Source: a virus. From it: DNA of 37,674 nt. A program made the position numbers and the translations under genes. Below the pieces are notes generated by a model. The model had not been told where the DNA came from. It saw only the letters and a list, made by a program, of their open reading frames with translations, and did no database searches. The stretch's first letter is position 1. Each line of letters starts with the position of its first letter. Where the stretch lies: the IMG/VR virus record IMGVR_UViG_3300020735_000026, positions 1 through 37,674 of that record; one strand, written 5' to 3'. Shown here piece by piece: positions 4,733 through 31,858 of this stretch.

Positions 4733-4867
4733 ATGTCATCAGACTTAATGGGCAGTACAGCAGTAATGAACTCAATTCCAACACCAACTGAAAAAGACTA
4801 CGTTCTCGCCAAGGCTTACCTTGAGAAGCGTGGACATGAAGACATCATCGAAATGCTCGGTCTATGA
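4733..4867 (+). CDS. Small hypothetical protein, 44 aa
   Basis: This short frame begins at ATG 4733, 5 bases after GGAGG (4723-4727), and ends with TGA 4865-4867, which overlaps the ATG of whiB (ATGA). The product has a polar N-terminus and a helix with KDYVLAKAYLEKRGHEDIIEML. The ribosome binding site, the tight packing and the stop/start overlap support it as a real gene despite its size. No function is apparent. It may serve mainly to couple translation to the WhiB gene. Confidence 0.65.
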   Translation: MSSDLMGSTAVMNSIPTPTEKDYVLAKAYLEKRGHEDIIEMLGL

Positions 4868-5112
4868 GCCGTCGAGAGAATCTCTGGAGAGATGAAGCGT
4901 CTTGCTATAAAGAGGGAATTGATACCGAGGAATTTTTTCCTGAAGTAGGAGAAACCGTACACAAGACAATCGTCCAGCTCTGCAAGAGCTGTCCGGTTAA
5001 AGCAGAATGCTTAGCCTATGCCGTATCTATTCCAGAACTGCACGGTTACTGGGCTGGAACGTACTTCCGGGACAGATACAAACTACGTAAGCAGTTACAG
5101 ACTGTTAAGTAG
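4864..5112 (+). CDS. WhiB-family Fe-S transcriptional regulator
   Basis: This 82-aa protein has the four-cysteine WhiB pattern: Cys14, Cys40-x2-Cys43 and Cys49, which would ligate a [4Fe-4S] cluster. GYWAGT (residues 61-66) follows, corresponding to the G[VI]WGG turn, and then a basic tail (RDRYKLRKQ) for DNA contact. Phage WhiB proteins can bind the principal sigma factor of the actinobacterial host and alter host transcription or superinfection outcome. The gene is last in a run of overlapping genes and is followed at once by an intrinsic terminator, so it closes this transcription unit. It is the best host indicator in the window. Confidence 0.9.
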   Translation: MSRRENLWRDEASCYKEGIDTEEFFPEVGETVHKTIVQLCKSCPVKAECLAYAVSIPELHGYWAGTYFRDRYKLRKQLQTVK

Positions 5113-12892: not shown

Positions 12893-15751
12893 TTATGCTC
12901 CCATCAGCATGAAGATTTGAGGGTTAGGGTCGGATGACACTGATGCCCATTGTACACCAGTACCAGTAGATTGTAAGACTTGACCACTCGTACCAGAGGT
13001 AGAAGAGGCTGTAAAAGTTCCAGTAAGGGTTGAATTGTTTAGAGTTGGTGCAGTAAGAGATCCACCCATTTGAGCAAGATCAGTAGTGCCAAAGCAATAC
13101 CAAATGCTGCCAGAGTAAACAAACGAGTAGTAAGTATTTACAGGAACTGTGTAAGAAGTTGAAGCAGAGTAAACAGTTCCTGAGATTGAGACTGAGTTAG
13201 TTCCACCCTTGATGTTTACTGGATAAGGGGAGATGTTCTTGATTTGATAGATGCTGCCGTTAAGTGCTGTGGCAGGCAGGGTAATGGTTTGGCTAGCAGT
13301 ACCAGAAGTACCGTAGATTGTAAACTCGCCTGTGCCAGCAGTAGCCGTAGCCGAACGAACAGTAAGGCTAGCTGAGATTTCAGGTACCCATGTACCCGGT
13401 GTACCTGCTGTAGTGCAGATCCATAGTGTTCCAGTGTCATCGATAACAAGATCGCCTACTGCAAAGGTGCCCGATGTAGGAGCGCCTGCTGAGGTAGCGC
13501 CAACCAAACGAACCGTGTTGGTAGTAGCACCTGTAAGACCAGTAGCAGCGACAGCATTACCTGTTACTGTTCCAGTAGCAGTTAATGATGTACCAGTTGC
13601 TGCACCAATGTTAGGTGTTACAAGGGTAGGGCTAATAGAGAATACTGCTGCGCTTGTACCAGTAGCGGTAGAAGAACCATCATAGAACAGGTTCCAAGCA
13701 CCAGAGGTGTTGGAGCTGGTAGAAAGCACTGTAGCCACAACAGATTGTGATGGGTACAAGGTTGCAAGGTTTGTGCCACCATAAAGGTTGACAGTCACGT
13801 TGGCATTGGTGCCAAGGTGCGTGATGTTGGTAAGGTCGAAATACTCACCGACAGCAAGGGTAGCCGTGTTAGGCAAGACTACTGTGTGGCTGCTATTAGA
13901 ACCGTTGGCACTAAAGTAGATCTGCTGGTTATCTGAAGACGATAGGTTGGTTGTACCGCCAGATACAGATACGTTAGTTAGACCAAAGACTGCATTGCCA
14001 ATAGTAGGCAAAGTCAAAGTTGGGTTAGTCTGAAGGACATAGTTACCAGTACCTGTGACAGTGCCCGCTGTGACGCTAGTTACACGCCCATAGGCATCCG
14101 TTGTCATTGTGCTTGGATGTCCGTAGGTACCGGCTGTACCTGCAGTAGCAAGGTTGATGGTAGGAGCAGAACCACCTGTGCTGGTGATGTTACCTGTTGT
14201 ACCAAGAACGTTAGTTACCGCAGAGGTAGAAGAAATAGCCGACCATGAGGTTGTGCCAGTGCTGTACACAAACATTGTGTTGTTTGCGCTATTGAAGTAT
14301 GTAGCACCATTGATAAGGGCATTGCCTTGGTTATCCAAAGTAGGCGCTGAAGCAAACGATCCTAGGTAATAGGTCTTGTACGTGTTGTAAGTAGCAAGGG
14401 AACTAGAAGCAGAAGTTGCAGCGTTTGTGGCTGAGTTAGAAGCAGCGGTAGCCGAAGCAGCAGCTGAAGTAGCCGATGTTGCAGCAGCCGTAGCAGATGC
14501 AGCAGCGCTAGTCGCTGATGTAGCAGCGGCAGTCTGAGACAGGGATGCTGAGTTAGCAGATGTCAAAGCAGCTGATGCTGAAGTAGCAGAACTGGTAGCG
14601 CTAGTAGCAGCAGACGATGCCGATGTAGCTGCAGAACTGGCTGAGGTAGCAGCGTTAGCAGCCTGAGTAGTTGCTGTGCCGGCAGAAGTAGCAGCAGTGG
14701 TTGCACTAGCAGCAGCGCTTGTGGCGCTGGTTGCTGCAGCAGTTGCTGAGGCAGCAGCAGATGTTGCTGAAGTTGCAGCAGCAGTTTGGCTAGCAGCAGC
14801 AGATGTAGCAGAGGTAGCTGCAGAAGCGGCGCTTGTAGAAGCGGCTGTAGCAGATCCCAAGATGCTATCTACGTAACCCTTGGTAGTAGCATCGGTAGAT
14901 GCTGAAGGCGTAGCAAGGTTATTAATCTGATGGGTACCCATGTTGATAGCACCGGTCATGGTACCGCCAGCCAAAGGAAGTTTGGTTCCTAGGGCAGTGG
15001 TAAGAGTGGTGTTGAAGTTAGGGTCATTGTTGATAGCAGAAGCCAACTCGTTAAGTTGGTTCAGGCTAACTGGAGCACCGTTAACAAGGTTAGTAATCTG
15101 AGCGTCTACATAGTTCTTGGTAGCAGCATCTTGTGCAGATGCTGGGTCAGCCATGTTATGGATCTGATAACCACCGGCTGCAAGAGCAGATCCCAAGGTA
15201 CCAGATGCGATAGTAGCGCTAGTCACAGTGGCAGAACTGACAGTACCGCCATTGATGGTAGGCGATGTCAAAGTTTTGTTGGTCAGAGTCTGGGTACCTG
15301 TAAGGGTAACCACAGATGTCGACAATGTATTGGTAGAGCTGGACAGATCCTTGTTGGTAAGTACCTGTGTGTCGCTATCGCCTACTACGTTACCTGTAAG
15401 CCCATGAACTCCTGATGTAGCCACCTCGTGGGTATTGGCTTCACGAAGGTCACGACCGATAACCATGTGACGGACAACGGCACCAGCTGAGTGATCCTGT
15501 GCTGTAGATCCATCCACTGCACGAGTGATTGTGATGTTATTGCCAGAGACGGCAGTAATATCTACAATTTCTTCAAGTGATGTATCTGGATCAATAACAA
15601 TGGTAAAGGTTTGACCCGCTGAGATTGTTACTCCACCAAGCAAGGTAGTCGCTGAGTTAACAGAGGCTACCGTAGCTGTATCGATAAGAGTAGATGAAAG
15701 AGTGGTCTGTTGGGACCGCGAGGAGTACTTACGAGGTGTCTGGGCTGTCAT
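12893..15751 (-). CDS. Long tail fibre with Ala/Ser/Thr 14-residue repeats
   Basis: This is a 952-aa protein. The N-terminus (to about residue 110) is likely the virion-attachment part. TLTNKTLTSPTI at about 155-166 is a common fibre element. Two copies of an IxN-(L/M)A-x-P...DAATKNYVD/DATTKGYVD block (about 195-220 and 274-298) are typical of T7-like and other fibre proteins. Residues 311-450 are ten 14-residue repeats, AATSATSAAASATA-like, which predict a long Ala-rich coiled-coil stalk. The C-terminal 500 residues are Thr/Gly-rich beta sequence. The composition suits a trimeric host-recognition fibre. Confidence 0.8.
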   Translation of the reverse strand: MTAQTPRKYSSRSQQTTLSSTLIDTATVASVNSATTLLGGVTISAGQTFTIVIDPDTSLEEIVDITAVSGNNITITRAVDGSTAQDHSAGAVVRHMVIGRDLREANTHEVATSGVHGLTGNVVGDSDTQVLTNKDLSSSTNTLSTSVVTLTGTQTLTNKTLTSPTINGGTVSSATVTSATIASGTLGSALAAGGYQIHNMADPASAQDAATKNYVDAQITNLVNGAPVSLNQLNELASAINNDPNFNTTLTTALGTKLPLAGGTMTGAINMGTHQINNLATPSASTDATTKGYVDSILGSATAASTSAASAATSATSAAASQTAAATSATSAAASATAAATSATSAAASATTAATSAGTATTQAANAATSASSAATSASSAATSATSSATSASAALTSANSASLSQTAAATSATSAAASATAAATSATSAAASATAASNSATNAATSASSSLATYNTYKTYYLGSFASAPTLDNQGNALINGATYFNSANNTMFVYSTGTTSWSAISSTSAVTNVLGTTGNITSTGGSAPTINLATAGTAGTYGHPSTMTTDAYGRVTSVTAGTVTGTGNYVLQTNPTLTLPTIGNAVFGLTNVSVSGGTTNLSSSDNQQIYFSANGSNSSHTVVLPNTATLAVGEYFDLTNITHLGTNANVTVNLYGGTNLATLYPSQSVVATVLSTSSNTSGAWNLFYDGSSTATGTSAAVFSISPTLVTPNIGAATGTSLTATGTVTGNAVAATGLTGATTNTVRLVGATSAGAPTSGTFAVGDLVIDDTGTLWICTTAGTPGTWVPEISASLTVRSATATAGTGEFTIYGTSGTASQTITLPATALNGSIYQIKNISPYPVNIKGGTNSVSISGTVYSASTSYTVPVNTYYSFVYSGSIWYCFGTTDLAQMGGSLTAPTLNNSTLTGTFTASSTSGTSGQVLQSTGTGVQWASVSSDPNPQIFMLMGA
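14402..14821 (-). repeat. Ten 42-bp tandem repeats encoding 14-residue units
   Basis: Translating the fibre gene, residues 311-450 fall into ten consecutive 14-residue units with the consensus A-A-T-S-A-T-S-A-A-A-S-A-T-A. Copies 2, 3, 8 and 9 are nearly identical and copies 4-7 have diverged. Fourteen residues equal two heptads, in keeping with a coiled coil. At DNA level this is a 42-bp repeat that could vary in copy number by recombination. Confidence 0.85.
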
Positions 15752-18540: not shown

Positions 18541-19731
18541 TTACACGTAGTCAATGCTTGATGATGATTCGACACGGTATAGTGACTCTTGACGATAGAT
18601 CGCCCAGCCGCCTACTCCGTACCAACCAAGTGGACGCTGACGCATCAACTTATCAACGACCGGACCGATCACAACGTGGAATTCTTCGGCTACGGCTTCA
18701 GACAGAGCTTGCTGTCCAGCGAAGTAGGTGTTGAATACCTTTGTGATTGGAGTCACGGTAACTGTTGCACCTGATGTGACACCAGCTGATGTAACAGCAG
18801 CTGAGAGTGTCCAGATAAGGCCAGTTGAATCGATAGCTGTAACAGTTGTGTTAGCAGCGATACCTGTAGCAGCAACCTGATCTCCGACGTTGATTGACAA
18901 CGCACCTGAAGTAGCAGATGTTACTGCGATTGTTGTAGCACCTGAAGCAGCAGAAGTTGAAGTTGCTGTTGTCCATGTAGACTGAGCAGCACCTGTCTTA
19001 GCTGAGAACATACGAGGTGACTCAATGTAGTACGCACCTTCGTACGAACCAATCTCGCCAGCCCAGATCTCATCTGCAGCTTGGTACTCGTGTGGCTGAC
19101 GCCAAGATCCGACGCCTGTTTCGGCACGGAGATCAAGAGCAACCTCTGGGTGGATGTACGCAGCGTACATGTTACCCTTGCGAGGAATAGCCTTGTTTGT
19201 ACGTAGCTTAGCTGTGACCTTACGGGCAGTAGCTGAGTTAAATGTTGAAGAAGAAGTCAATGTAGCAGTTGATGTAACTGTTCCCGGACGAAGTACGTTT
19301 GTACCTGCAGAGAGAACGTTCTGAGCAACTGTATCGATCGAGTCTGCCATGTTGAACGCGATGATGTTAGCGATAGCTGGATCTACGTCAGCAAGGCTGA
19401 AGAGTTCCAACGCACGTGTTACGAGCACTGCGTTACCATACTCGGCAAGAGTAATGGTTGTGTATGTTGGTGTAGCGAGCGCTACTGCATCCGGATCAAC
19501 TGTCTCTGTAAGAGAGTTGGTCTGTTGTGTCAAGTCAACGTAACGTTGCAATACAACAGATGAACCCGGGATGCTTTGACGTGCTGGTGTCTTATCCGCG
19601 ATGTTACGGATAAGAGGTTGAGCACGAAGCTGGAATTCGATAAGGCGATCGTACGCCTTCTGAACTAAACCAGCACTTCCGACTGTACCGCCAAGACTGG
19701 TCGAGCCAGTATTTGTATAAGCGTTAGCCAT
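18541..19731 (-). CDS. Major capsid protein, N4-gp56-like
   Basis: This 396-aa protein has a near-perfect Shine-Dalgarno (AGGAGG) before ATG 19731, as expected for an abundant protein. N-terminal RNIADKTPARQSIPG, then a VDLTQQTNSLTE loop, TLAEYGNAVLVTRALEL and MADSIDTVAQNVL follow the order of the N4-gp56 family, a variant of the HK97 fold. Residues about 247-327 are a Thr/Ala/Val-rich insertion (see the finding on the insertion). After it the conserved core resumes (KVFNTYFAGQQALSEAVAEEF). It sits directly after the scaffold gene. Confidence 0.85.
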   Translation of the reverse strand: MANAYTNTGSTSLGGTVGSAGLVQKAYDRLIEFQLRAQPLIRNIADKTPARQSIPGSSVVLQRYVDLTQQTNSLTETVDPDAVALATPTYTTITLAEYGNAVLVTRALELFSLADVDPAIANIIAFNMADSIDTVAQNVLSAGTNVLRPGTVTSTATLTSSSTFNSATARKVTAKLRTNKAIPRKGNMYAAYIHPEVALDLRAETGVGSWRQPHEYQAADEIWAGEIGSYEGAYYIESPRMFSAKTGAAQSTWTTATSTSAASGATTIAVTSATSGALSINVGDQVAATGIAANTTVTAIDSTGLIWTLSAAVTSAGVTSGATVTVTPITKVFNTYFAGQQALSEAVAEEFHVVIGPVVDKLMRQRPLGWYGVGGWAIYRQESLYRVESSSSIDYV

Positions 19732-19766: not shown

Positions 19767-20258
19767 TTAAAAGTTTCCGCTGCGAATCATTTCGAGCAGT
19801 TCGGACTCGCTAGCATTAGCGACCCTTGCTGCAATATCTTCGTCACGGCCGGGTGTTACTGCACCCTGCGTCGCAATGTCCTGCTGGCGTAATGCCGCAC
19901 GGTCAATTTGCTGTTGAGGGTCTGCCTGCTTTTGCACAGTCAACCCAAAAAGATCCGCATTATCATCGAGCCAGTTATTGACTGACTCCTCGTTAACGCT
20001 GTCTAAATCTTTTAGGATAAGTCGTGCCGCTTTAGGACTGACACCCTGTTGATCAAGGACTTTATGAACGATTTGCTCGCGCTGTACTTTGGATACTGAC
20101 TCAAAGCGCTCAGCGAGGTCTTTGTTCTCTTTCTCTTTTGCTCGAAGTGCTTTACGCAACTTCTTAACAAGGTCATCACCGCTAGATGAATTGTTGTTAT
20201 TCAAGCTCTGATCTTCGAGATCAAAGTCATCTTCATCGTCCCAATCGTTTGTTGCCAT
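19767..20258 (-). CDS. Capsid scaffold protein
   Basis: This is a 163-aa highly charged protein. It has an acidic N-terminus (DWDDEDDFDLEDQ), a Lys/Glu coiled coil at about residues 29-60 (KLRKALRAKEKENKDLAERF), and a helical C-terminal half with Gln-rich linkers. KAARLILKDLD...VNNWLDDNADLFG is typical of scaffold proteins. It is located immediately upstream of the capsid gene, and GGGAGAA is 8 bases before ATG 20258. It probably templates procapsid assembly and is removed, possibly by the Ntn hydrolase encoded nearby. Confidence 0.8.
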   Translation of the reverse strand: MATNDWDDEDDFDLEDQSLNNNNSSSGDDLVKKLRKALRAKEKENKDLAERFESVSKVQREQIVHKVLDQQGVSPKAARLILKDLDSVNEESVNNWLDDNADLFGLTVQKQADPQQQIDRAALRQQDIATQGAVTPGRDEDIAARVANASESELLEMIRSGNF

Positions 20259-20381
20259 AGCAACCGTTCTCCCATTCTGTTATGTGTATCGCAGACCGCA
20301 CGGACCATTCGGGGAAATGACGTGGCTTCTACTACCGGTCTATGTACGCTATCTCTGCCGGTGTGTGAGATAGGATTCTGT
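20259..20381 (-). promoter_or_regulatory. Untranslated gap before scaffold and capsid genes
   Basis: This is the longest gap in the late operon (123 bases). GAGATAG and CTATCTC (20367-20373 and 20349-20355) form an inverted repeat with an 11-base loop, and an ACCGG/CCGGT pair overlaps it. I see no T run and no convincing -10/-35 pair. It may hold a late promoter or RNA processing site boosting scaffold and capsid expression, but the sequence alone does not prove this. Confidence 0.35.
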
Positions 20382-21602
20382 TTAGAACTTACCTTGCATT
20401 GACTTTCTCAAGGTTTGGACGTTAGGGTTAATGCCTGATTGACCTTGGAAGTTAGCGGTTTCATAGGCGCTAAGCTTTTGTTGGGTTAGGGCTGCCTGTC
20501 CGTTGTTCAGTAGGTATTGCTGTTCGGCACTCTGCTGGTTGTAATTCAAGCCAGTCTGATTGCCGTAGATGTTAGAAATGTTGGTAGCTGCAGGAAGCAC
20601 ATTGGCTACTTTGCCAAAGCCTGTCTGGGCTGTGGCTTGGGTAACGCCAGCTCCATAAAGAGCTTGGCTGTTAGCCACTGTGTTAGCCAGTCCTTGACGA
20701 GCAGCCTCAGCACCGATCTGTGAAGATCCGACTTGCTCTTGAAGCAAGGTGCTTGAGATCGTAGGATCCAATACATGGGCTACCATCTGCTGTGAGCTGA
20801 TGCCGTAGTACTGCTGCAAAGCTGCGGTATAGTACGGGTCAGCGTTAGCTACGCTAGCCTGTGCTAGGTTGATACGAGATTGAACCTCAGAGGTGCTAAG
20901 GTCAGAACCGATAAGGTTACCGATAGCAGCTTGTGTGTAGTACTGAGGTGGAAGTCCAGCATCCTTCATCATACCTGTGATCTGGTTTTCGTAATCGAGA
21001 TAATCAGCAGGAGACAAAACGTTAAGTCCAGCTTTAAGACGCTGAGTGTTTCCTGAGAAACGAGTCATGTACGCTTGGCTGGTCTGAAGATCAAGGCTGA
21101 TAGCATCGGAACTCATGCCACCCATGGCATCGTTCTTAATGATATTTTGCAGGGCAGCTGATGATGAATCAAGCTGACCAGTCACAGGATCTGTTTTGTA
21201 GATACCGTAAGAAGTGAAAAGAGCGTTAACCGTGTCGTAGACACTTTGACGCTGTGTCTGCACACCAGCATCTAAGCCTGAAGAAGTAGTGACGTTAGTC
21301 GTACCGTTTGAGTATGTAATGGTGGTTACATCTTGTCCTTGAGCGTTAACCGATGTGCTACTGCCAACCACTGTCTTGCCACCTGCAGGAGCAGAAGAAC
21401 CGCCACCTGTATTAACAGGAACTACTTGGCTTTTGACTCCACTTGAGCTGGTAATCGTTGTAAAAGGGTTAAGCCCTGCTGCAATGTCAGCTTGAACAAT
21501 GGCTTTAGATGCAGCCGCTTTAGCAGCTGACGCTGCTGCTTTAACTTTGGCTGCTGCTTCTTTAGCAAATGCTGCTTGTAAAGCAGCTGATTGTGTTGCC
21601 AT
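20382..21602 (-). CDS. Putative internal virion/ejection protein, 406 aa
   Basis: This protein is rich in Ala, Gln, Ser and Thr. The N-terminal 35 residues are an Ala/Lys helix (AKEAAAKVKAAASAAKAAAS). The C-terminal half is a series of helical segments with Gln and Tyr (INLAQASVANADPYYTAALQQ; NYNQQSAEQQYLLNNGQAAL). No enzymatic motif is seen. Its start overlaps the stop of the next upstream gene (TGATG), the last of three such couplings. The chain of coupled genes with the 1792-aa protein suggests core or ejection proteins of a podovirus, comparable in position to T7 gp14-16. Confidence 0.55.
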   Translation of the reverse strand: MATQSAALQAAFAKEAAAKVKAAASAAKAAASKAIVQADIAAGLNPFTTITSSSGVKSQVVPVNTGGGSSAPAGGKTVVGSSTSVNAQGQDVTTITYSNGTTNVTTSSGLDAGVQTQRQSVYDTVNALFTSYGIYKTDPVTGQLDSSSAALQNIIKNDAMGGMSSDAISLDLQTSQAYMTRFSGNTQRLKAGLNVLSPADYLDYENQITGMMKDAGLPPQYYTQAAIGNLIGSDLSTSEVQSRINLAQASVANADPYYTAALQQYYGISSQQMVAHVLDPTISSTLLQEQVGSSQIGAEAARQGLANTVANSQALYGAGVTQATAQTGFGKVANVLPAATNISNIYGNQTGLNYNQQSAEQQYLLNNGQAALTQQKLSAYETANFQGQSGINPNVQTLRKSMQGKF

Positions 21603-22642: not shown

Positions 22643-23610
22643 TATACTCCTGCCATATTAGATGTGGCTAGCTTCTGCATCATGTCGAATGCAGTACCAG
22701 CTGCGGTGTAGGCGTTGTATTCACCTGATTGGCGAATCGAATTCTCTACGAATTGGTTCTCGGTAAGGTCATTGCTTGTTGAGTTGTAGGTCTGACCAGA
22801 CTTAACACGGGATACTGTTCCGCTAGTTGGGTTAGTAGCCGGGGTATAGCTGGTAGAACCCGTCTCATTCATGGTTGGGTTAGCAGCGGCATACTTGAGG
22901 TATGCGTTGCCATAAGCAGCCAGTTCTTGATCACTAGCCTTGCGTCCCATGAACTGAAGGAATAGATCGTTAACCACGTTATTGCTAGCCACGACGTTAG
23001 GTTGGTCACGGCTGATACGGCTGTAAGTGCTGTTAGCGAAGTAAGGGCTAGAAGCAATGGAATCTTGCTGTCCCATAAATGCTCTAATGTCTACAGGAGC
23101 ACCTTGGCTAAGACCAGATGTAGGGTTGCTAGCCTGTTGCATAGCACCTTGAAGGGCTGTTGCATCGGCTGTAGTGAACTTAGAACCTAGCTTGAGTTGG
23201 TAGTTCTTAATGCCAGCAGCATCGTAGTAACCGCCAGCTGCTGCGTTCGTACGCAGAGTATCAGCCATGTTCTGGTTAGCTGACAAGAATAAAGAAGCCA
23301 TGTAGGTAAGACCGTCAACTGTAGATGGCAAAGGCTTACCATCTGATCCAACCATTGTCTTGCCGTTAGGCATCTTGGTTGGGTATTGAGCTGTCTTCCA
23401 AGCATTGGTAGCTGAAGTCGTTGTACCTGTGGTGATAACACCACCAGTATCTGCAGCAAGACCTGCAGGAGCAGTGCCTGTTGTAGTTGTCTGGGTGTTT
23501 CCTGTGGTAGTGGTTTGGCTACTGCCACCCATAGTACCGGGACCAATACCTAACGCTCCAGCAGCTTTGGTATCTGTAGTAGCTGAACTACGAGCAAATG
23601 TTTTAGCCAT
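22642..23610 (-). CDS. Putative internal virion/ejection protein, 322 aa
   Basis: The first ~70 residues are low-complexity Thr/Gly/Ala (SQTTTTGNTQTTTTGTAPAG). The core is helical, with LFLQFMGRKASDQEL at about 216-230, a recurring motif of the type GR-x-x-x-x-x-E in phage structural proteins. It ends in NTYAAG-like helical sequence and MMQKLATSNMAGV. It is coupled to the 1792-aa gene by TAATG at 23610. I infer an internal virion role by context. Confidence 0.55.
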   Translation of the reverse strand: MAKTFARSSATTDTKAAGALGIGPGTMGGSSQTTTTGNTQTTTTGTAPAGLAADTGGVITTGTTTSATNAWKTAQYPTKMPNGKTMVGSDGKPLPSTVDGLTYMASLFLSANQNMADTLRTNAAAGGYYDAAGIKNYQLKLGSKFTTADATALQGAMQQASNPTSGLSQGAPVDIRAFMGQQDSIASSPYFANSTYSRISRDQPNVVASNNVVNDLFLQFMGRKASDQELAAYGNAYLKYAAANPTMNETGSTSYTPATNPTSGTVSRVKSGQTYNSTSNDLTENQFVENSIRQSGEYNAYTAAGTAFDMMQKLATSNMAGV

Positions 23611-26600
23611 TACTTCACTTCCTCAATAGGTCCAAAAGTAGATTGATAGAACTTCTTGTAGAAGCCCAAGAAACGCGGATCGGCTTTAGATGTAGGCGTT
23701 CCCATGGCAATCGCCACTGCCTTATCACGCATCTTCTGAGTATCAGCAGCCACTGTGTTGATGTCCTTGGTTGTATTGATCTTATTTAGGACTACGGTTG
23801 CTTGATCAAAGAATGATTGATAGTTGGCATAGTTCCAGTCGTTAGACTGATCCAAGCGGTTCATTGTCTTGGTAAGAGCATCATTCTTTAGTTCATAAGC
23901 AGCTGTGCTTCCGCCAGCTTCATAAGCTGGATAAAGCAAACCAGCGTACTTCTCAATACTTGAAGCATTGATTTTAAGGTTTTCGATTGTACGTGGAATG
24001 TAGGTTCCAGCTGGAAGTGCTTGAGCCCATGTCAACTTACGGCTAATAGCCGGAGCCAAGTAAGACTTAGCCAAGGTGACAAAGTCAAGACCTTGCTGAA
24101 CTTGTCCTAGATCGCTAGTCGTGTTTGAGTAGTTAATAGCACGACGAGGAGGATTCTTGAAGATGTCAGAGTTAACAAAGTTGGCGAAATGCTGTGCTTC
24201 GTTAAGGATCTTAAGCCATCCGGCTTGTGCCGTTTCTGGCAAAGTTCCCTGACCCCATACGTTCTGACCAGTCTCTGGGTTGTAACCCACAAGCAAAGCG
24301 TTCAACTCTGACCATGCTGGAATCAAGCCCTTAAGGAGCTTGGTAGCCTGTGAAGCGTTATCAGAGGTAATAGCCTGCGGCGCGAACATGTTCAAGATGG
24401 TGTTGATGTACTGAGAGTTAATACCACCAAACTGTCCTAGACCAATTCCATGGTCAAGGGCGTTCAGTTGCTTAAGCTCTGTAATCAAAGCAAAGTTCTT
24501 ATCTAGCCAGTTACCGATAGCGTTGTTCTTATTGAAGGCAAATTCATGCCCATCAATCTTGACGCCATGCTGATATACCTGTAAAGCCTGATTAAGGATT
24601 GCTGCTTTACCTGTGTTATCTAGGATGTAACCACCGATGTTGCGGTAGAGAGTCTTGTTAAATGAGAATGGATAAAAGACTGTAGCGATGCTCTTCTCAA
24701 AGGCGGTACGATCTCCGTAGCCGTTGATTTTCTCAAGCTTGCCAGCAATCTCTTCGTCGCTAAGACCCATCTCTTTGAGATGTTGGGCTTGCCACATCAT
24801 GCTGTGCAAAGGATTGTAGAAGTTGAAAATGTCGCTTTTAGCCAATGTGCCGTCAAGCTCACTAGCGCCAGACATCTTGCTACCAAATTCCTCTGGGATC
24901 AAGCGCTTGGTAAGATCAAATGCATCCTGCAAGCGACCTGTACGCATCAAAGATAGGTAAGGGTTAGCAGTCGCAGGGATGCCTTCTAAGGCAGCCTTAA
25001 GGTTAGTCTTAACCATACGACGAATACCAAATAGTGGATTCAGATCAAAGCGGAACTTATCGCGTAGAGCGATCATGTTCTGTCCTAGACCAGCTGTGGC
25101 ATCAAAAAGACCCCAACGAGCTGAAGATTCTCCAGCAGGTAGCGCTGTCTTACCCATGAATGACATAGCACCCTTGGCAATACCAGCGGTAGAAGCACGA
25201 AGTACATCTTCAACTTTACCTAAGCCTACGTAAGTAGCCTTCATCTTTGCATCAGATGCAAGGATATGGGTGATAACCGCGTTAGCTGTAGCACGATCCA
25301 TCAAAGGAATTTCGTATCCAAGCTTGCTATCTGGGTTGATAGGCTGCATGAGGATCTTACGCATGCTCGCAGTGCTGAGATTGTTGACAGTAGTCTCAGC
25401 GCTTTTAGCAAGCTGAGCCTTAGTGCGCTGTTCTGCACGAGCTGTCTCAATCGCAGTTTCATCGCCAGAAGCGAGAAGCTCTGCATTGGCAGGATCTTCA
25501 TTAAATATCTTGTCGGTCATAGGTGTAGCGCGGTTGTAAACAACGCTGAGTGCACGCTTAGGAATGGTCATCGCATCTTGGAAGATGTGACCTACTTTAC
25601 CTAGCTTTGCACCTTCTTTAGCCGCACCTTGTGAGAGCAGGTTCAGTACATCGCGTCCGTTCATATTGAACGGTAGCTTTGTTCCTGTCTTCAAAAGCCA
25701 TTCATCGATAGCCGCTGCGCGTTGAGCACGGCGTACTTCAAAGACGTTAGTGTCCTTGATAGCATCCATGCCTAGGCCTAAGCCACGGGCTGCATTACGG
25801 ATAGCGTTGTTGTTGTCTTCGACAACGTGTGGAGGAATGATCGACTTCTCATAGGCATGACCGATGCCGGTACCTAGAGCTGGACGCCATCCATGAGCTT
25901 TAACAGCCTCCCAAGCATCATGTGCTTCCTGAGGAGCGTTATCAAGAAGAGATGCCTCTGAAGCCTGTGTTTGTGAACGCTTCCAAAGTGCGTACATCAT
26001 CTGGATTGGATCTTCTAGAAGAGATACTGTCTTAGGAGACATACCTAGCTTCTCGGCAAGAGCCTGACCTTGTTTCCAGATTTCATGTTCTTTACCACCG
26101 ATAGGCATAGGTTGCAGAGCATGAGGAGCCACTTCTGGGGCTACGTTATTTCTAGCTTCCATCTCAATAGTTGAGAACATGTTAGCTACTTCTTGGTCGT
26201 GACCAAGCTTTGAGTATTTGCTAGCCATCTTGCGTACAGCGTTCTGGATGTCTTGTTGAGTCTGGTATTCCGGACCAACAAATCCAAGCTGTCCACGTCC
26301 CACAACGTTATTGTGGAAGATAGTGCTAGGCATAAAGCTATCTTTGGCAAGTGCTGGATCTACGCGTACCTTGACAGCAGTGGCTGCTTCAGGCTTAATA
26401 ACATGAAGGGTCTTGCCATCCTTGTTCATGTACTTGAAACCAGAGGATTCAGTCTTGCTCATCGCATCGCGTGTTACTGCAGCGATACGCTGATCTACTT
26501 GTTGTTTGTTAAGCTTGCCAGCAGCTGTAAGCGCTGTGCGGTAAGCATCAAGAACTTCTTGTCCTGTATAGTTAAAGTCATCTTTGAGAGCCTTACGAAG

Positions 26601-28988
26601 TTGCTCATAACCTTTGGCAACCTTGCCCGGGATAGCGCCCTTTTCAAGGTAGCGAAGAGTATTGGGAGTATCTCCCGGCTCCATAACACCTAGCTCATCA
26701 AGAGCCTTGTTAATGTCACCTGAACGACCCATGTTGCTGCCGATAACTTCTTTGATCGCATCAGCAATGGCATTGCTTTCGCCACGCTTGTTAAGATCTA
26801 AGATCTTGGCTGGTGCTCCCGAAGGAGACACATGGGTAAGGTTGTAGGTATTCTTCTTAGAACGGCCTACCCAATTGGTATCATCTGTAGCCTTGATACC
26901 AGAACCGTAAGGTCCATTCTCGCTAAGCATCCATGTCTCAGGAGCGTGGTCATCTACCTTGTCATTGAGGTGATAGAGAGCCTTGGTATTAGCAGTGTTA
27001 TCAAAAGTAGGGTTCTTGTTCATGTCAGCGGCTAAGCGCTCGCTGCGTAGGTCTTCAGCCTTGGTTACAGCGCTGGATCCAAAGACAAACTTCTTGTTCT
27101 CTTCTTTGAGGAGAGTCTCAAGATCTGGACGCAAAGCGGCAATCTTCTGACGAGCTGCGATCCACTTCTCTTTACCGGCTTTGCCAGTCTTGAATTCAGG
27201 TAGAACTTCGCCAGTAGCCTTTTTGTCAAGGTAGTCGAAGTTTTCCTTCATAAAGTGGGTGATCATGTCATTGGATTGACCAATAAATGAGTTGCGAGCA
27301 AAGTTGGCAATGTGAGGTTCTGAGTATGCATCTTCTGCGTACTTCTGACCAGCCTTAAAATAGTCATCTGTGCCTGCTTCAAACTTGCCATCTTTGACAT
27401 CTTGAGCAAGTCGAGTCTCAGCGTAATGATAAGCAGCGCCTTTATTGAGGTACTCGTTGTAGATGTTGGTAGCTTCGGTCTGACCAAAGGCTTCAGTCAT
27501 GTCTTTGACAGACAATCCTGTGGCTTGCTTGAAAGCATCGCCTACGCCTGCGGTAGCAAGGCTATCCTTGAGAGGAGTAAGAGCTCCTTCAATAAAGTTA
27601 CCTGCGTGAACAGAGCCAGCATTGCCCATGAAATGTCCACCAGCAGACATGCTGATTGCATTCAAGGCTTGTCCAAGCATGCCTGAGTAAGGTGCTTGGT
27701 GTGCTAGATCATAAGTAGCGGGTGTTCCACCGCTAAGCTTGTCTTCAGCTTCGCTGATAGCAAGGCTTTTGATGCCTGTGCTGAATCCTTGAGATGCCAA
27801 TGCGTTGGTAACTTGGCGAGCAGGGATACGGCTAAGAGAAGCAATAGTGTTTTTAAGCACTGCATACTTGCTACCTTCGGTAGGCAATTTAGCAATCAAA
27901 GGTAATAGGTTGCGAGCACCGGGAACTCCGTTAAGGAGGTTCAATACACCGGAACCTTCAGCGCCTTTAGGAGCATCTGGAGCAGCATTGTAAAGCCACT
28001 TAACAAAACCAAAGCGTGGAGTAGCAGCAAACTCTTCAGGCAAGCTACGAGTAATCATAGATTGAGGCTCAGTAGCAGTCTTCTTGACAAGGGCTGCAAC
28101 TTTTTGAGCAACGTTAGCGTCCTCAGGGACACTTCCCTTAATCATTCCGCCAGCTACGTTCTTGACAACGCCAGAAACGCCAAGTGCACCGTCAATGACG
28201 GATGCAAACTGGAACATGTTTCCGATGTCAGCGATAGAACGACGTGTCATTCCTTGCTGCATAACTTGTTCTGTGGTGGTATTGCCACCAAGATCGTTTT
28301 CGATACGGGCTACGTTGGCTGCTTGGTTCTCGTCAGGAGAACTTCCGTGGCCTACGCCGAAATCGTTCATAATAGAACCAGCTTGGTCAGCCATAATCTG
28401 GCGTCCAGCACGTCCTAGGTTTTCTACCCAACCGACTATCTGAGGCGCTACCTTAGCTAGGCTAGCTTCTCCGAGAAGTGGGGAGATGATCTTCATGGCA
28501 GATACGTTGCCAAAGCCGGGAACGTTGAATTGATCGTTCGCTAAACGGCGTAGTTCATTTGTCCATGATGAAGTCCAGTTACCCTTAACCAAAGGTTGTC
28601 CTGTATTAGGGTCAATACCGTAACCTTTAAGCTGCATGCTAGCCTGAACATCGTTGATGTTCGAGGTAACTACAGGTGGGTGTGAATACTGGTTATGAGC
28701 CCATGATAGAGCCTTCTGAATAGGCGTCTCAACTGCATGAAGCAAAGGATCTGAAAGGAATGTAGAGCCTTCTAAAGGCTTTGTCATCATTGCTAGCTTC
28801 ATTGTGTCAGCGTTGGTAGCCATGTTCTGAGTGCTACCACCAGCAGGGCTGGCTACGTGAGCAGCAAGAATTGGGTCCATCCACTGTGTGTGACCTAGAG
28901 CAGCAAGAGTATTGATACGATCGCCAACAAGATCCGCTGAAGGATTACCTGATGGTGATACCGGAGGCAATGGAGTTACATCAGACAT
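23610..28988 (-). CDS. Giant putative internal virion protein, 1792 aa, with ART-like segment
   Basis: This is the largest gene of the window. The chain is helix-rich and Ala/Lys-rich, without signal peptide or clear transmembrane helices. Residues about 669-875 contain an ADP-ribosyltransferase-like pattern: ALYHLNDK, then GPYGSGIKATDD, then KILDLN, then GFKYMNKDGKTLHVIKP. This order is found in ART-type domains of large polyvalent phage proteins. The rest looks like a long core protein (for example GLFDATAGLGQNM at about 1270 and FSFNKTLYRNIGG later). It is encoded between the Pro/Gln-rich protein and three coupled companions. It may be ejected into the host at infection, carrying its enzymatic domain, or act as an internal core or tape. 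Confidence 0.6.
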   Translation of the reverse strand: MSDVTPLPPVSPSGNPSADLVGDRINTLAALGHTQWMDPILAAHVASPAGGSTQNMATNADTMKLAMMTKPLEGSTFLSDPLLHAVETPIQKALSWAHNQYSHPPVVTSNINDVQASMQLKGYGIDPNTGQPLVKGNWTSSWTNELRRLANDQFNVPGFGNVSAMKIISPLLGEASLAKVAPQIVGWVENLGRAGRQIMADQAGSIMNDFGVGHGSSPDENQAANVARIENDLGGNTTTEQVMQQGMTRRSIADIGNMFQFASVIDGALGVSGVVKNVAGGMIKGSVPEDANVAQKVAALVKKTATEPQSMITRSLPEEFAATPRFGFVKWLYNAAPDAPKGAEGSGVLNLLNGVPGARNLLPLIAKLPTEGSKYAVLKNTIASLSRIPARQVTNALASQGFSTGIKSLAISEAEDKLSGGTPATYDLAHQAPYSGMLGQALNAISMSAGGHFMGNAGSVHAGNFIEGALTPLKDSLATAGVGDAFKQATGLSVKDMTEAFGQTEATNIYNEYLNKGAAYHYAETRLAQDVKDGKFEAGTDDYFKAGQKYAEDAYSEPHIANFARNSFIGQSNDMITHFMKENFDYLDKKATGEVLPEFKTGKAGKEKWIAARQKIAALRPDLETLLKEENKKFVFGSSAVTKAEDLRSERLAADMNKNPTFDNTANTKALYHLNDKVDDHAPETWMLSENGPYGSGIKATDDTNWVGRSKKNTYNLTHVSPSGAPAKILDLNKRGESNAIADAIKEVIGSNMGRSGDINKALDELGVMEPGDTPNTLRYLEKGAIPGKVAKGYEQLRKALKDDFNYTGQEVLDAYRTALTAAGKLNKQQVDQRIAAVTRDAMSKTESSGFKYMNKDGKTLHVIKPEAATAVKVRVDPALAKDSFMPSTIFHNNVVGRGQLGFVGPEYQTQQDIQNAVRKMASKYSKLGHDQEVANMFSTIEMEARNNVAPEVAPHALQPMPIGGKEHEIWKQGQALAEKLGMSPKTVSLLEDPIQMMYALWKRSQTQASEASLLDNAPQEAHDAWEAVKAHGWRPALGTGIGHAYEKSIIPPHVVEDNNNAIRNAARGLGLGMDAIKDTNVFEVRRAQRAAAIDEWLLKTGTKLPFNMNGRDVLNLLSQGAAKEGAKLGKVGHIFQDAMTIPKRALSVVYNRATPMTDKIFNEDPANAELLASGDETAIETARAEQRTKAQLAKSAETTVNNLSTASMRKILMQPINPDSKLGYEIPLMDRATANAVITHILASDAKMKATYVGLGKVEDVLRASTAGIAKGAMSFMGKTALPAGESSARWGLFDATAGLGQNMIALRDKFRFDLNPLFGIRRMVKTNLKAALEGIPATANPYLSLMRTGRLQDAFDLTKRLIPEEFGSKMSGASELDGTLAKSDIFNFYNPLHSMMWQAQHLKEMGLSDEEIAGKLEKINGYGDRTAFEKSIATVFYPFSFNKTLYRNIGGYILDNTGKAAILNQALQVYQHGVKIDGHEFAFNKNNAIGNWLDKNFALITELKQLNALDHGIGLGQFGGINSQYINTILNMFAPQAITSDNASQATKLLKGLIPAWSELNALLVGYNPETGQNVWGQGTLPETAQAGWLKILNEAQHFANFVNSDIFKNPPRRAINYSNTTSDLGQVQQGLDFVTLAKSYLAPAISRKLTWAQALPAGTYIPRTIENLKINASSIEKYAGLLYPAYEAGGSTAAYELKNDALTKTMNRLDQSNDWNYANYQSFFDQATVVLNKINTTKDINTVAADTQKMRDKAVAIAMGTPTSKADPRFLGFYKKFYQSTFGPIEEVK

Positions 28989-28991
28989 GTG

Positions 28992-29528
28992 TTACCCCTG
29001 TTGTGTCGGTGGTGTTGGCGCTACGTTGCCCGGGATTCCTTGAGAAGCTGATGGTGCTACAGCACTAGCATTGCTCAAGTGAGCCTGCAAAGCGTTGCGG
29101 ATTGACTTGACTTGGTTTGAAGCATTATTACCAAGTTGGTCAAGAAGATTAAGTGTCTGAATTAAGCCAGCGTTCTGTGCTTGATTCTGTTGCGAGACAT
29201 AAGGCTGTCCATTAAGACCAGCGTTTACAGGCTCGTTAGGGCGTTGTGTAGGCGCAGATAGCGGAACAGCCTGCGGACCGCTTGTAGGCAATCCTCCGCC
29301 CGCTGAAGGCATAGCTGGGACAGGTGTTGGATTACCTGCTAGTGGTGCTGCTTGCTGTGTAGCAAAGGTTGAACGTCCCTGACCTTGTGGTAAACCGGGC
29401 ATATAACGAGGAGCTTGAGTTGTCATTTGACGGATCACTGGAGAGTTGCCCTTATTACCGTTTCCACCTGAAGCTGAGACGCCAAAGTTGTTCTGAGGAG
29501 CAGTTGGACGGTATCCACCTCTAGCCAT
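28992..29528 (-). CDS. Pro/Gln-rich structural-region protein, 178 aa
   Basis: The first 110 residues are low-complexity Pro, Gln, Gly and Ala (PRYMPGLPQGQGRSTF; QAVPLSAPTQRPNEP). A helical segment follows (QTLNLLDQLGNNASNQVKSIRNAL), then a Ser/Ala/Pro tail. It is disordered for most of its length. GGAGGAAC precedes ATG 29528. It lies between the Ntn hydrolase and the giant gene. A linker or scaffold-like role is possible, but no family is recognised. Confidence 0.6.
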   Translation of the reverse strand: MARGGYRPTAPQNNFGVSASGGNGNKGNSPVIRQMTTQAPRYMPGLPQGQGRSTFATQQAAPLAGNPTPVPAMPSAGGGLPTSGPQAVPLSAPTQRPNEPVNAGLNGQPYVSQQNQAQNAGLIQTLNLLDQLGNNASNQVKSIRNALQAHLSNASAVAPSASQGIPGNVAPTPPTQQG

Positions 29529-29536
29529 TGTTCCTC

Positions 29537-30073
29537 CTACTTGTAATGAGTCTCTGTAATGTAAGGTCCTGCTGTAAATGCTGTAAGTTGTGAAGCAATA
29601 TCCATGGCTTCTTCTGGTTCAGCACCCGCTGCTAAAGCGCCAAGAGCGTAAGATCCGCCAGATCCAATGCTATAAATGCCATTGAGTTGACGAGTCATAC
29701 CTAAACTGTCATCAAGTTCAAAGAGATGACCAGCAACGGATACGATAAATCCAAATCGGTTATCGCCAGCGTCTGCTTCGTTAAAGTTGTAACCATTTTC
29801 AACCAAACACTTACGCATTGAAGGTACTACTTTGACTACCATGAAGTGCCAAAGGTCTTCTTTGTCTTTTGCAAGCACTCGTGGTGGTTCCCAGATGTGT
29901 TGAATGACATCGCATGGGAGGATTTCACCAGCGCCAGCAACGATAAATGCTCCACGCTTGCTGATCTTTACCATATCGGGATGGTGCCAAACTTTACCGC
30001 CGTCATCTGTGACGCGGTTGTCTGCCATAATGACTGAACGATCGTGGTATTCAATGCCGATAATCGTTGTCAT
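29537..30073 (-). CDS. Proteasome beta/HslV-like Ntn-hydrolase, candidate prohead protease
   Basis: This 178-aa protein begins MTTIIGIEYHDRSVIMADNR, very like mature proteasome beta and HslV subunits. After Met removal Thr2 would be the N-terminal nucleophile. Asp18 falls at the position of Asp17 in proteasome numbering, and a Lys in VKISKRGAF (Lys36) may serve as Lys33. GSGGSYALGALAAGAEPEEA (137-156) matches the Ser/Gly loop and following helix. It has no propeptide. It lies between portal and the internal virion genes, where capsid proteases normally sit, and no serine-type prohead protease is visible. Proteolytic cutting of scaffold and head proteins is a reasonable hypothesis. Confidence 0.75.
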   Translation of the reverse strand: MTTIIGIEYHDRSVIMADNRVTDDGGKVWHHPDMVKISKRGAFIVAGAGEILPCDVIQHIWEPPRVLAKDKEDLWHFMVVKVVPSMRKCLVENGYNFNEADAGDNRFGFIVSVAGHLFELDDSLGMTRQLNGIYSIGSGGSYALGALAAGAEPEEAMDIASQLTAFTAGPYITETHYK

Positions 30074-30082
30074 CGCTTGTCC

Positions 30083-31858
30083 CTATCGCGCTTGTGTGAC
30101 TTGTTTTGTACTTACTCCGCCTGTTGGCTGCCCACCAGCTGTTAAGCCAGCAAGTAATGTCTGTAGATCTGGGACTCCGTTTTGCGGTGCGCCTCCCGGA
30201 AGAGGAGTGCCTTCTGCTGGAGCGCCGGGAGCAGAGGGGACGGACGGCTGCTCTACCTGTTGTTCAGCCCCAGCAGGAGGATTCTCGGGTGCGAAGATCT
30301 CTTCGATAGCGTCTTCGATCTGAATGCCCTTTTGTCGGGCTTGGATCACCGCTGCGATCTTCTTGACTAGATCCGTTGGATCCTGTCCTTGAGTAATCAT
30401 CTGTGGGATTGCTTGGGTCATGGCAGACAAACTGCCAATGAGAGCTGAACGCAAGTCTTCCGTCTCGATACGTTCTTGCTCTAGAGTTACGTTCACTCCG
30501 AATGGAAGTTCACGCATAGCCAAATCCTTGGAGATTAACTTACCGCCAAGTGCTTGAAGCATAAATACTAGGCCTTGTGCTGGGTTAAGACCAGCAAGCA
30601 TTCCATAACGAACATCGGCTGAGTAATCACCCTTGATGTCCTTGGAAGGTGTGTATGTTACTGAGTAAGGAGATCCGGAATCGATACCACGGATAGTCTT
30701 TGTCTCATCGAATAACTTCTCATCTACTTCAAAGCAGAGGGAAAGAACATCACGAAGTGCTGCAGCAAAGATAGTTTGAGCAGACTTCACTTGGGTGTCA
30801 AATGCGCCAAGCAGGGCATTGACGCCCTCGCCTGTAACGACGGACGCATTAACATTTCCGGTACGCGATTCAGGGTAACGCGCTCCTACGCGGAGTTCTT
30901 CATTCAATAATTGTGACTCATTGAATGCTCCTTGAGGCAGCGTGAGTTCTACGCGACGTACGCCTTGAGGGTTAGCTGTGCGAATGACAGCATCGCCACC
31001 CAACTGAAGCTCTTGCACATCGTTGGGCAGTACGATTGGTGATTGAACGGACTTCTCTGCTGCTTCCATAGCAAGCAAAGCAAATCGGTTACGTAGCAAC
31101 TGAATGCCTAGCACATCGTCGAACTGACCACGAAGTTCACCATCAACGCTTGGTCGCTTAGCGACAATAACCATCATCTTGCCCATAGGGTTTGGAACCT
31201 GTGAGAGGACGAAATTGGTGCGTGATGGAAGATACATCATCGACTGATCTTTGTCGTAATAGCGGATCATTTCGATCATGCCATTAAGATCTTGCTTGTA
31301 CCCGTCCGGTCCAAGGATCTGTCGTTCATAGTCTGGGAATTGAGCGACTAACTCAGAGAGCGTCATTGAATAACGCTTAACAAAGGCTATGCATCGTCCG
31401 TAGCGATCAAACTCGGGATATGCCCCTACTGGATTTTCTAGTCGGATGCGTGGTAGCTTTGCCTCTTCATCCAGTTCAATAATGAACGGGAGGAAACCAT
31501 AGGTGATGTACATGTCTGCGCCATTGAACATCTGTACATCCATTTGAGAATGTGCAAAGTAGTTGCTGGCGATACGTGTACGAGTGTCCGCAAACTTGCG
31601 GGCACGGTCTGATGTTTGATTGACAGCAGAACAGTTAACTGCTGGTAGTGGTGCAAAGACTTCTGCAAAGTCGCGTGCCACTACATCGATAAAGTTGGCT
31701 ACGACGTTTTGGTCGATACCATCTGGAAAGAAGTTAGGGTAAACCTGTGAGATCTTTCCTTGACGTACCATCTGCACATCACCATTACGCATGTCACGAG
31801 ACGTGCTGCGATAGCGAAGTGCCATCACACGTGAGATGACTTGTTGCTTGGTTAGCAT
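30083..31858 (-). CDS. Portal protein
   Basis: This is a 591-aa protein. It follows terminase (with two tiny genes between) and shows the helical core expected of portals. The N-terminal region has DGIDQNVVANFIDVVARDFAE and RTRIASNYFAHSQMD. The crown-like middle contains LLRNRFALLAMEAAEKS and RRVELTLPQGAFNESQLLNEEL. NASVVTGEGVNALLGAFDTQV is a typical portal wing or stem element. The C-terminal 80 residues are a Pro/Gly/Gln-rich tail. AAGGAC precedes ATG 31858. It forms the dodecameric DNA channel. Confidence 0.8.
   Translation of the reverse strand: MLTKQQVISRVMALRYRSTSRDMRNGDVQMVRQGKISQVYPNFFPDGIDQNVVANFIDVVARDFAEVFAPLPAVNCSAVNQTSDRARKFADTRTRIASNYFAHSQMDVQMFNGADMYITYGFLPFIIELDEEAKLPRIRLENPVGAYPEFDRYGRCIAFVKRYSMTLSELVAQFPDYERQILGPDGYKQDLNGMIEMIRYYDKDQSMMYLPSRTNFVLSQVPNPMGKMMVIVAKRPSVDGELRGQFDDVLGIQLLRNRFALLAMEAAEKSVQSPIVLPNDVQELQLGGDAVIRTANPQGVRRVELTLPQGAFNESQLLNEELRVGARYPESRTGNVNASVVTGEGVNALLGAFDTQVKSAQTIFAAALRDVLSLCFEVDEKLFDETKTIRGIDSGSPYSVTYTPSKDIKGDYSADVRYGMLAGLNPAQGLVFMLQALGGKLISKDLAMRELPFGVNVTLEQERIETEDLRSALIGSLSAMTQAIPQMITQGQDPTDLVKKIAAVIQARQKGIQIEDAIEEIFAPENPPAGAEQQVEQPSVPSAPGAPAEGTPLPGGAPQNGVPDLQTLLAGLTAGGQPTGGVSTKQVTQAR

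Follow-up and report, generated by a model that had tools for sequence, protein, structure and literature searches.

The head genes and the actinobacterial affiliation of the phage

The window, the whole stretch of 37,674 nucleotides of viral DNA analyzed here, contains a head module with the gene order terminase, two small genes, portal, Ntn hydrolase, g178, a giant protein, g322, g346, g406, scaffold and N4-type capsid. The portal gene (30083..31858, minus strand; phrog_104, E 7e-26) is the immediate upstream neighbor of the Ntn hydrolase gene (29537..30073, minus strand). On its downstream side, the slot that contains the Ntn gene has a fixed border, g178 (28992..29528, minus strand), which encodes a Pro/Gln-rich protein of 178 residues with a weak match to phrog_8200. 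The giant, a putative internal or ejection protein of 1792 residues (23610..28988, minus strand), has no family match. It occupies the same position in the relatives, where it is 1519-1886 residues long, and displays no BLASTP similarity to its 1648-residue positional counterpart in Immanuel3. The scaffolding protein comprises 163 residues (19767..20258, minus strand; phrog_648, E 6e-6, and phrog_7813) and the major capsid protein 396 residues (18541..19731, minus strand; phrog_1357 and Phage_capsid_3). The alignment of the capsid protein contains no long N-terminal extension. About 80 extra Thr/Ser/Ala-rich residues, possibly an inserted surface domain, are found at positions ~240-330 of the capsid protein when it is compared with a 320-residue Streptomyces phage homolog. 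The 952-residue tail fiber (12893-15751, minus strand) carries a long Ala/Ser/Thr repeat (SAATSATSAAASATAA...).

An earlier note on this DNA had located the Ntn gene between the portal and the internal virion and scaffold genes, and the neighborhood is as described. The note had also seen no S14-, S78- or U35-type prohead protease, and searches for S78, of which U35 is an older MEROPS name, and for ClpP/S14 proteases indeed detected none in the window. A search of the window for Peptidase_S77 gave no match, and its positive control was silent too.

A gene for a WhiB-type transcription factor, which is a signature of actinophages, lies at 4864-5112 on the plus strand and is present in 17 of 18 records tested, the window counted. 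The closest relatives in the annotated collection are OX376640, which is the record of LanE43-AprE7 (E7), and OX376641, which fits phage F5. Phages E7 and F5 were isolated on, and lyse, 'Ca. Planktophila'; host-protein degradation is among the gene functions annotated in that study, the main text of which leaves the Ntn gene unnamed (PMC10202952). Cultured Streptomyces phages of the Beephvirinae possess the same head module, with portal proteins 42-44% and capsid proteins 41% identical and a weak scaffold match. No match to PHROG_1040, the profile that detects the Ntn enzyme, was obtained in these cultured relatives. In the Streptomyces relatives, about 20 tRNA genes (L253:16040-17988) immediately precede the scaffold and capsid genes; at this position the window, which is devoid of any tRNA, has a gap of ~120 bases (20258-20382).

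The Ntn hydrolase and its predicted structure

The open reading frame runs on the minus strand, which the earlier note had left unspecified, from 30073 down to 29537 and encodes 178 residues with the N-terminus MTTIIGIEY. The plus-strand translation of the region is interrupted by internal stops, which eliminates a wrong-frame reading. The protein matches PHROG_1040 ('peptidase HslV family') over its full length with E=2.4e-24, the functional label of this PHROG being 'other' only, and it passes the Pfam Proteasome cut-off narrowly (23.0 bits against 22.4). A profile of the family finds BPH (5ovs, E=8e-6) and then HslV chains among the solved structures, and Thr2, Asp18, Lys36, Gly49 and the GSG motif are aligned with T1, D17, K33, G47 and GSG of BPH. 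A search of bacterial genome contigs yielded a single distant match, in a gammaproteobacterial MAG (27% identity).

The AlphaFold (AF2) model has a pLDDT of 90.9 and a pTM of 0.87. Foldseek places BPH 5ovs first (2.6e-10, probability 1.00), followed by HslV and proteasome beta, with a TM score of ~0.67. Both the Ntn fold and the layout proposed in the earlier note, with Asp18, Lys36 and a GSGG loop at 137-140 behind the MTTIIGIEY terminus, are thus borne out, each residue being exactly where it was claimed. The catalytic set is composed of Thr2, which becomes Thr1 after removal of Met1, Asp18, Lys36, the oxyanion Gly49 and GSGG 137-140. Removal of Met1 would expose Thr2 as the N-terminal nucleophile, and Lys36 and Asp18 would assist it. 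The proposal of a proteasome/HslV-like hydrolase of this kind agrees with the profile, the fold and the invariant catalytic residues, and the product of 30073-29537 is a genuine small Ntn hydrolase of the proteasome/HslV type.

The enzyme combines the HslV/proteasome-beta fold with a Thr directly after Met and the equivalents of Asp17 and Lys33 (T2, D18, K36), as is characteristic of group I. DSSP assigns helices to residues 51-60, 68-92, 140-148 and 153-163 of the model and the final strand to 171-177. The model is therefore a compact subunit of HslV size with helices H1-H4, free of insertions and of helix H5, as described for AAH. PPH has ~140 residues and no helix H2, but the protein of the window has 178 residues and H2 is predicted. 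Judged by the model, AAH fits better than PPH, two subfamilies set apart by their descriptions in PMC8665760; the AAH-like label depends on these published descriptions of length and helices, and the protein may belong to CPH instead. By analogy with HslV and BPH, the subunits probably form rings. No AAA+ or HslU-like partner was recognized among the window proteins scanned.

Conservation of the active site

Residues T2, D18, K36 and G49 are invariant in all 51 distinct relatives of the enzyme, drawn from 83 loci, although part of this invariance is by construction, since some of the search seeds held the MTTIIG or K36 motif; D18 and G49 were outside the seeds. Loss of the Thr in close relatives, which the earlier note had named as evidence against its reading, was encountered in none of the 51. 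In a wider alignment that includes remote phage homologs (22-29% identity), T2, D18 and K36 are still invariant, and the remote homologs retrieved by plain tblastn, with no motif seeds, likewise begin with M-T. The gene has a median dN/dS of 0.049 and a maximum of 0.17 among 801 closely related pairs. A chance motif or a misprediction is ruled out by the profile, the fold and dN/dS. The sequence comparisons indicate that the enzyme is very probably active and under strong constraint.

The position of the proteasome Asp166, mapped by eye to HslV, is not kept: it is Gln162 in the window and mostly Lys in the relatives. The activity could therefore differ from proteolysis. The protein might then be a catalytic Ntn hydrolase other than a protease, an amidohydrolase or a connectase-like ligase, which possibly modifies a virion protein. 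Ntn folds are functionally diverse, and connectase, an enzyme of this fold, is a ligase (PMC8665760). However, the closest solved folds are the peptidases BPH and HslV, and the insertion after strand 3 that is typical of connectase is absent from the model, so that an activity of this sort appears improbable.

An exchangeable slot behind the portal gene

In the lineage of the window the Ntn gene always follows the portal gene directly, typically after a gap of ~14 nt. The slot was surveyed in the 80 best IMG/VR matches to the portal protein, two of which end too soon to be read. Among the 78 readable records, with portals 72-100% identical, the gene after the portal is Ntn in 43 and p77 in 34, and one record (L149) has neither, counts that describe these best 80 relatives and are not population frequencies. 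The protein p77 is 72-81 residues long, unrelated to the Ntn enzyme and located in the same one-gene slot. The earlier note had suggested a search for co-occurrence of the enzyme with this set of portal, scaffold and capsid genes; in the 34 p77 records and the empty one, the enzyme is missing behind a related portal.

The two genes were never found together at a locus (145 Ntn loci and 49 p77 loci). PHROG_1040 was detected in none of 14 records with p77 or an empty slot, six of them 37-40 kb long, and S78 and ClpP were likewise not found in the records of 37-40 kb. Conversely, p77 is absent from all 19 Ntn-bearing records searched and from the window, and the whole 39.5-kb record of L149 contains neither gene. 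Examples of p77 genes at the position otherwise taken by the Ntn gene are located at L091:2074-2316, L117:7870-8100 and L105:11766-11999.

The relative L091 is the most telling, as its portal protein is 97-98% identical to that of the window and p77 lies exactly where the window has the Ntn gene. Identity between the two DNAs is 93% as far as the tail of the portal gene; beyond the end of the Ntn gene, it amounts to 97.6% over g178, the giant, g322 and g346. No Ntn gene is present within the 20.4-kb contig of L091, a partial genome. According to a quick tree of 85 portal rows, with SH-aLRT support only, the content of the slot changes about 10 times, and at least seven changes of the Ntn label are forced by the starred branches. 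The Ntn gene is thus an exchangeable accessory in a one-gene slot between the portal gene and g178 and has repeatedly been swapped with p77.

The p77 protein has a basic N-terminus, a helical middle and a C-terminus rich in Asp and Glu. Its AF2 model is helical and poor (pLDDT 67.5, pTM 0.47). The p77 family has no Pfam match, and its matches to PHROGs are at chance level only. Homology of p77 to small genes from the same region of Streptomyces phages was considered and dropped, as no profile match was obtained. The protein could be an unrelated functional replacement of the Ntn enzyme.

The repeated replacement of a single gene among close relatives, the strict mutual exclusion of the two genes and the small size of p77, a protein with no family match, are features of a host-interaction or counter-defense cassette. 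In such a cassette, the Ntn enzyme and p77 would be alternative effectors in a hot slot and would, for example, remove or block a protein of the host or of a superinfecting phage. However, an early counter-defense gene would not usually reside in a late operon, and neutral accessory genes undergo slot swaps too. This role is considered rather unlikely.

Other locations of the enzyme and head maturation

Relatives of the enzyme with 49-57% identity adjoin endolysin or early genes. In a second phage type, where the enzyme is 52-57% identical to that of the window, the gene is found just downstream of the endolysin gene in 42 of 43 loci, and in the one record examined the portal and capsid genes of this type lie elsewhere on the contig. 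The gene belongs to an early cluster in L006, which its tail protein and terminase mark as a more distant relative of the window's lineage; there it lies between the genes of a glycosyltransferase and a RusA resolvase and near primase and sigma-factor genes. The large phages D'Alembert (of Psychrobacter), AAS21 (a T5-like phage of Pantoea) and the actinophage DSL-LC01 carry it among non-structural genes. An annotated head maturation protease is present besides the Ntn gene in D'Alembert, and the enzyme is accompanied by an S78 prohead protease in AAS21 and DSL-LC01.

The earlier note had suggested that the enzyme processes scaffold, capsid or ejection proteins. Prohead proteases exist as a class in phages, the Ntn gene follows the portal gene within the late operon, and S78 and ClpP-type proteases are absent from the genome, all of which would suit a protease that matures the scaffold, the capsid or the 1792-residue protein during assembly. 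However, every phage with this head module would be expected to encode its prohead protease, and the Ntn enzyme is absent both from closely related phages whose head genes are the same and from the cultured Streptomyces phages. The giant and its neighbors are ~98% identical in nucleotide sequence in L091, which has no Ntn gene. Moreover, the scaffold is a separate protein and the N4-type capsid has no long N-terminal extension. Phages T7, P22 and phi29 also have a separate scaffolding protein and need no prohead protease; the absence of S78 and ClpP therefore requires no explanation. A second protease in Ntn-bearing genomes, which the note had regarded as contrary evidence, was not found in the window by the S78 and ClpP searches but is present as an S78 enzyme in AAS21 and DSL-LC01. 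A literature search found no proteasome-like prohead protease. Since the enzyme can be exchanged for p77, it is not needed for the maturation of scaffold, capsid or ejection proteins. Its absence where the head proteins are nearly identical, together with its location near lysis or early genes elsewhere, leads to rejection of the maturation role, which is now very improbable.

Probable function of the enzyme

The most probable interpretation, to which a probability of roughly 0.6 is assigned, is that the enzyme is an exchangeable, catalytically constrained group I threonine peptidase of the AAH-like kind, an accessory protein that probably acts on proteins of the infected cell. Its position within the late operon implies that it is made late. 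Most likely, it would degrade or process host or phage proteins in the infected cell. The fixed place right after the portal gene makes a late or virion-associated accessory task possible as well. A bolder proposal is that a single task is served by two non-homologous proteins that are traded back and forth in the portal slot: the Ntn enzyme as a ring protease made late and perhaps associated with the virion, and p77 as a small acidic-tailed adaptor or inhibitor that acts on the protein-degradation machinery of the actinobacterial host. It is a speculative and doubtful proposal.

To our knowledge, phage homologs of the proteasome have no known function. The accessory peptidase proposed here lends itself to comparison because some relatives differ in the slot by the Ntn gene alone and constitute natural near-isogenic pairs, in which its role can be tested. 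The analysis also disposes of an appealing but mistaken idea, the maturation of these heads by a proteasome-like enzyme. In the sole survey of phage proteasome homologs, the gene context was uninformative and AAH was reported from no phage specific to actinobacteria (PMC8665760). If the AAH assignment holds, both an actinophage carrier and an informative gene context are now in hand. A homolog is present in phages of freshwater actinobacteria, including the isolates E7 and F5 on 'Ca. Planktophila' (PMC10202952).

Comparison with known systems

The HK97/S78 and T4-type prohead proteases are also phage-encoded and located near head genes, but their fold differs from that of the Ntn enzyme, which in addition is dispensable and, in Pantoea phage AAS21 and actinophage DSL-LC01, is encoded alongside an S78 protease. 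BPH and HslV are its best structural matches, with T1, D17, K33, G47 and the GSG motif aligned, although the identity is just ~18-22%. PPH is likewise a phage-borne group I proteasome homolog, but with its ~140 residues and no helix H2 it differs from the 178-residue protein with a long second helix described here. AAH (Fuchs 2021, PMC8665760) is phage-borne and HslV-sized and has Thr1/Asp17/Lys33, the oxyanion Gly, and helices H1-H4 with neither insertions nor a C-terminal H5, all of which are the same in the protein of the window. The AAH survey (PMC8665760) found AAH in no actinobacteria-specific phage and no telling gene context, whereas the gene described here belongs to actinophages and occupies a fixed, exchangeable slot.
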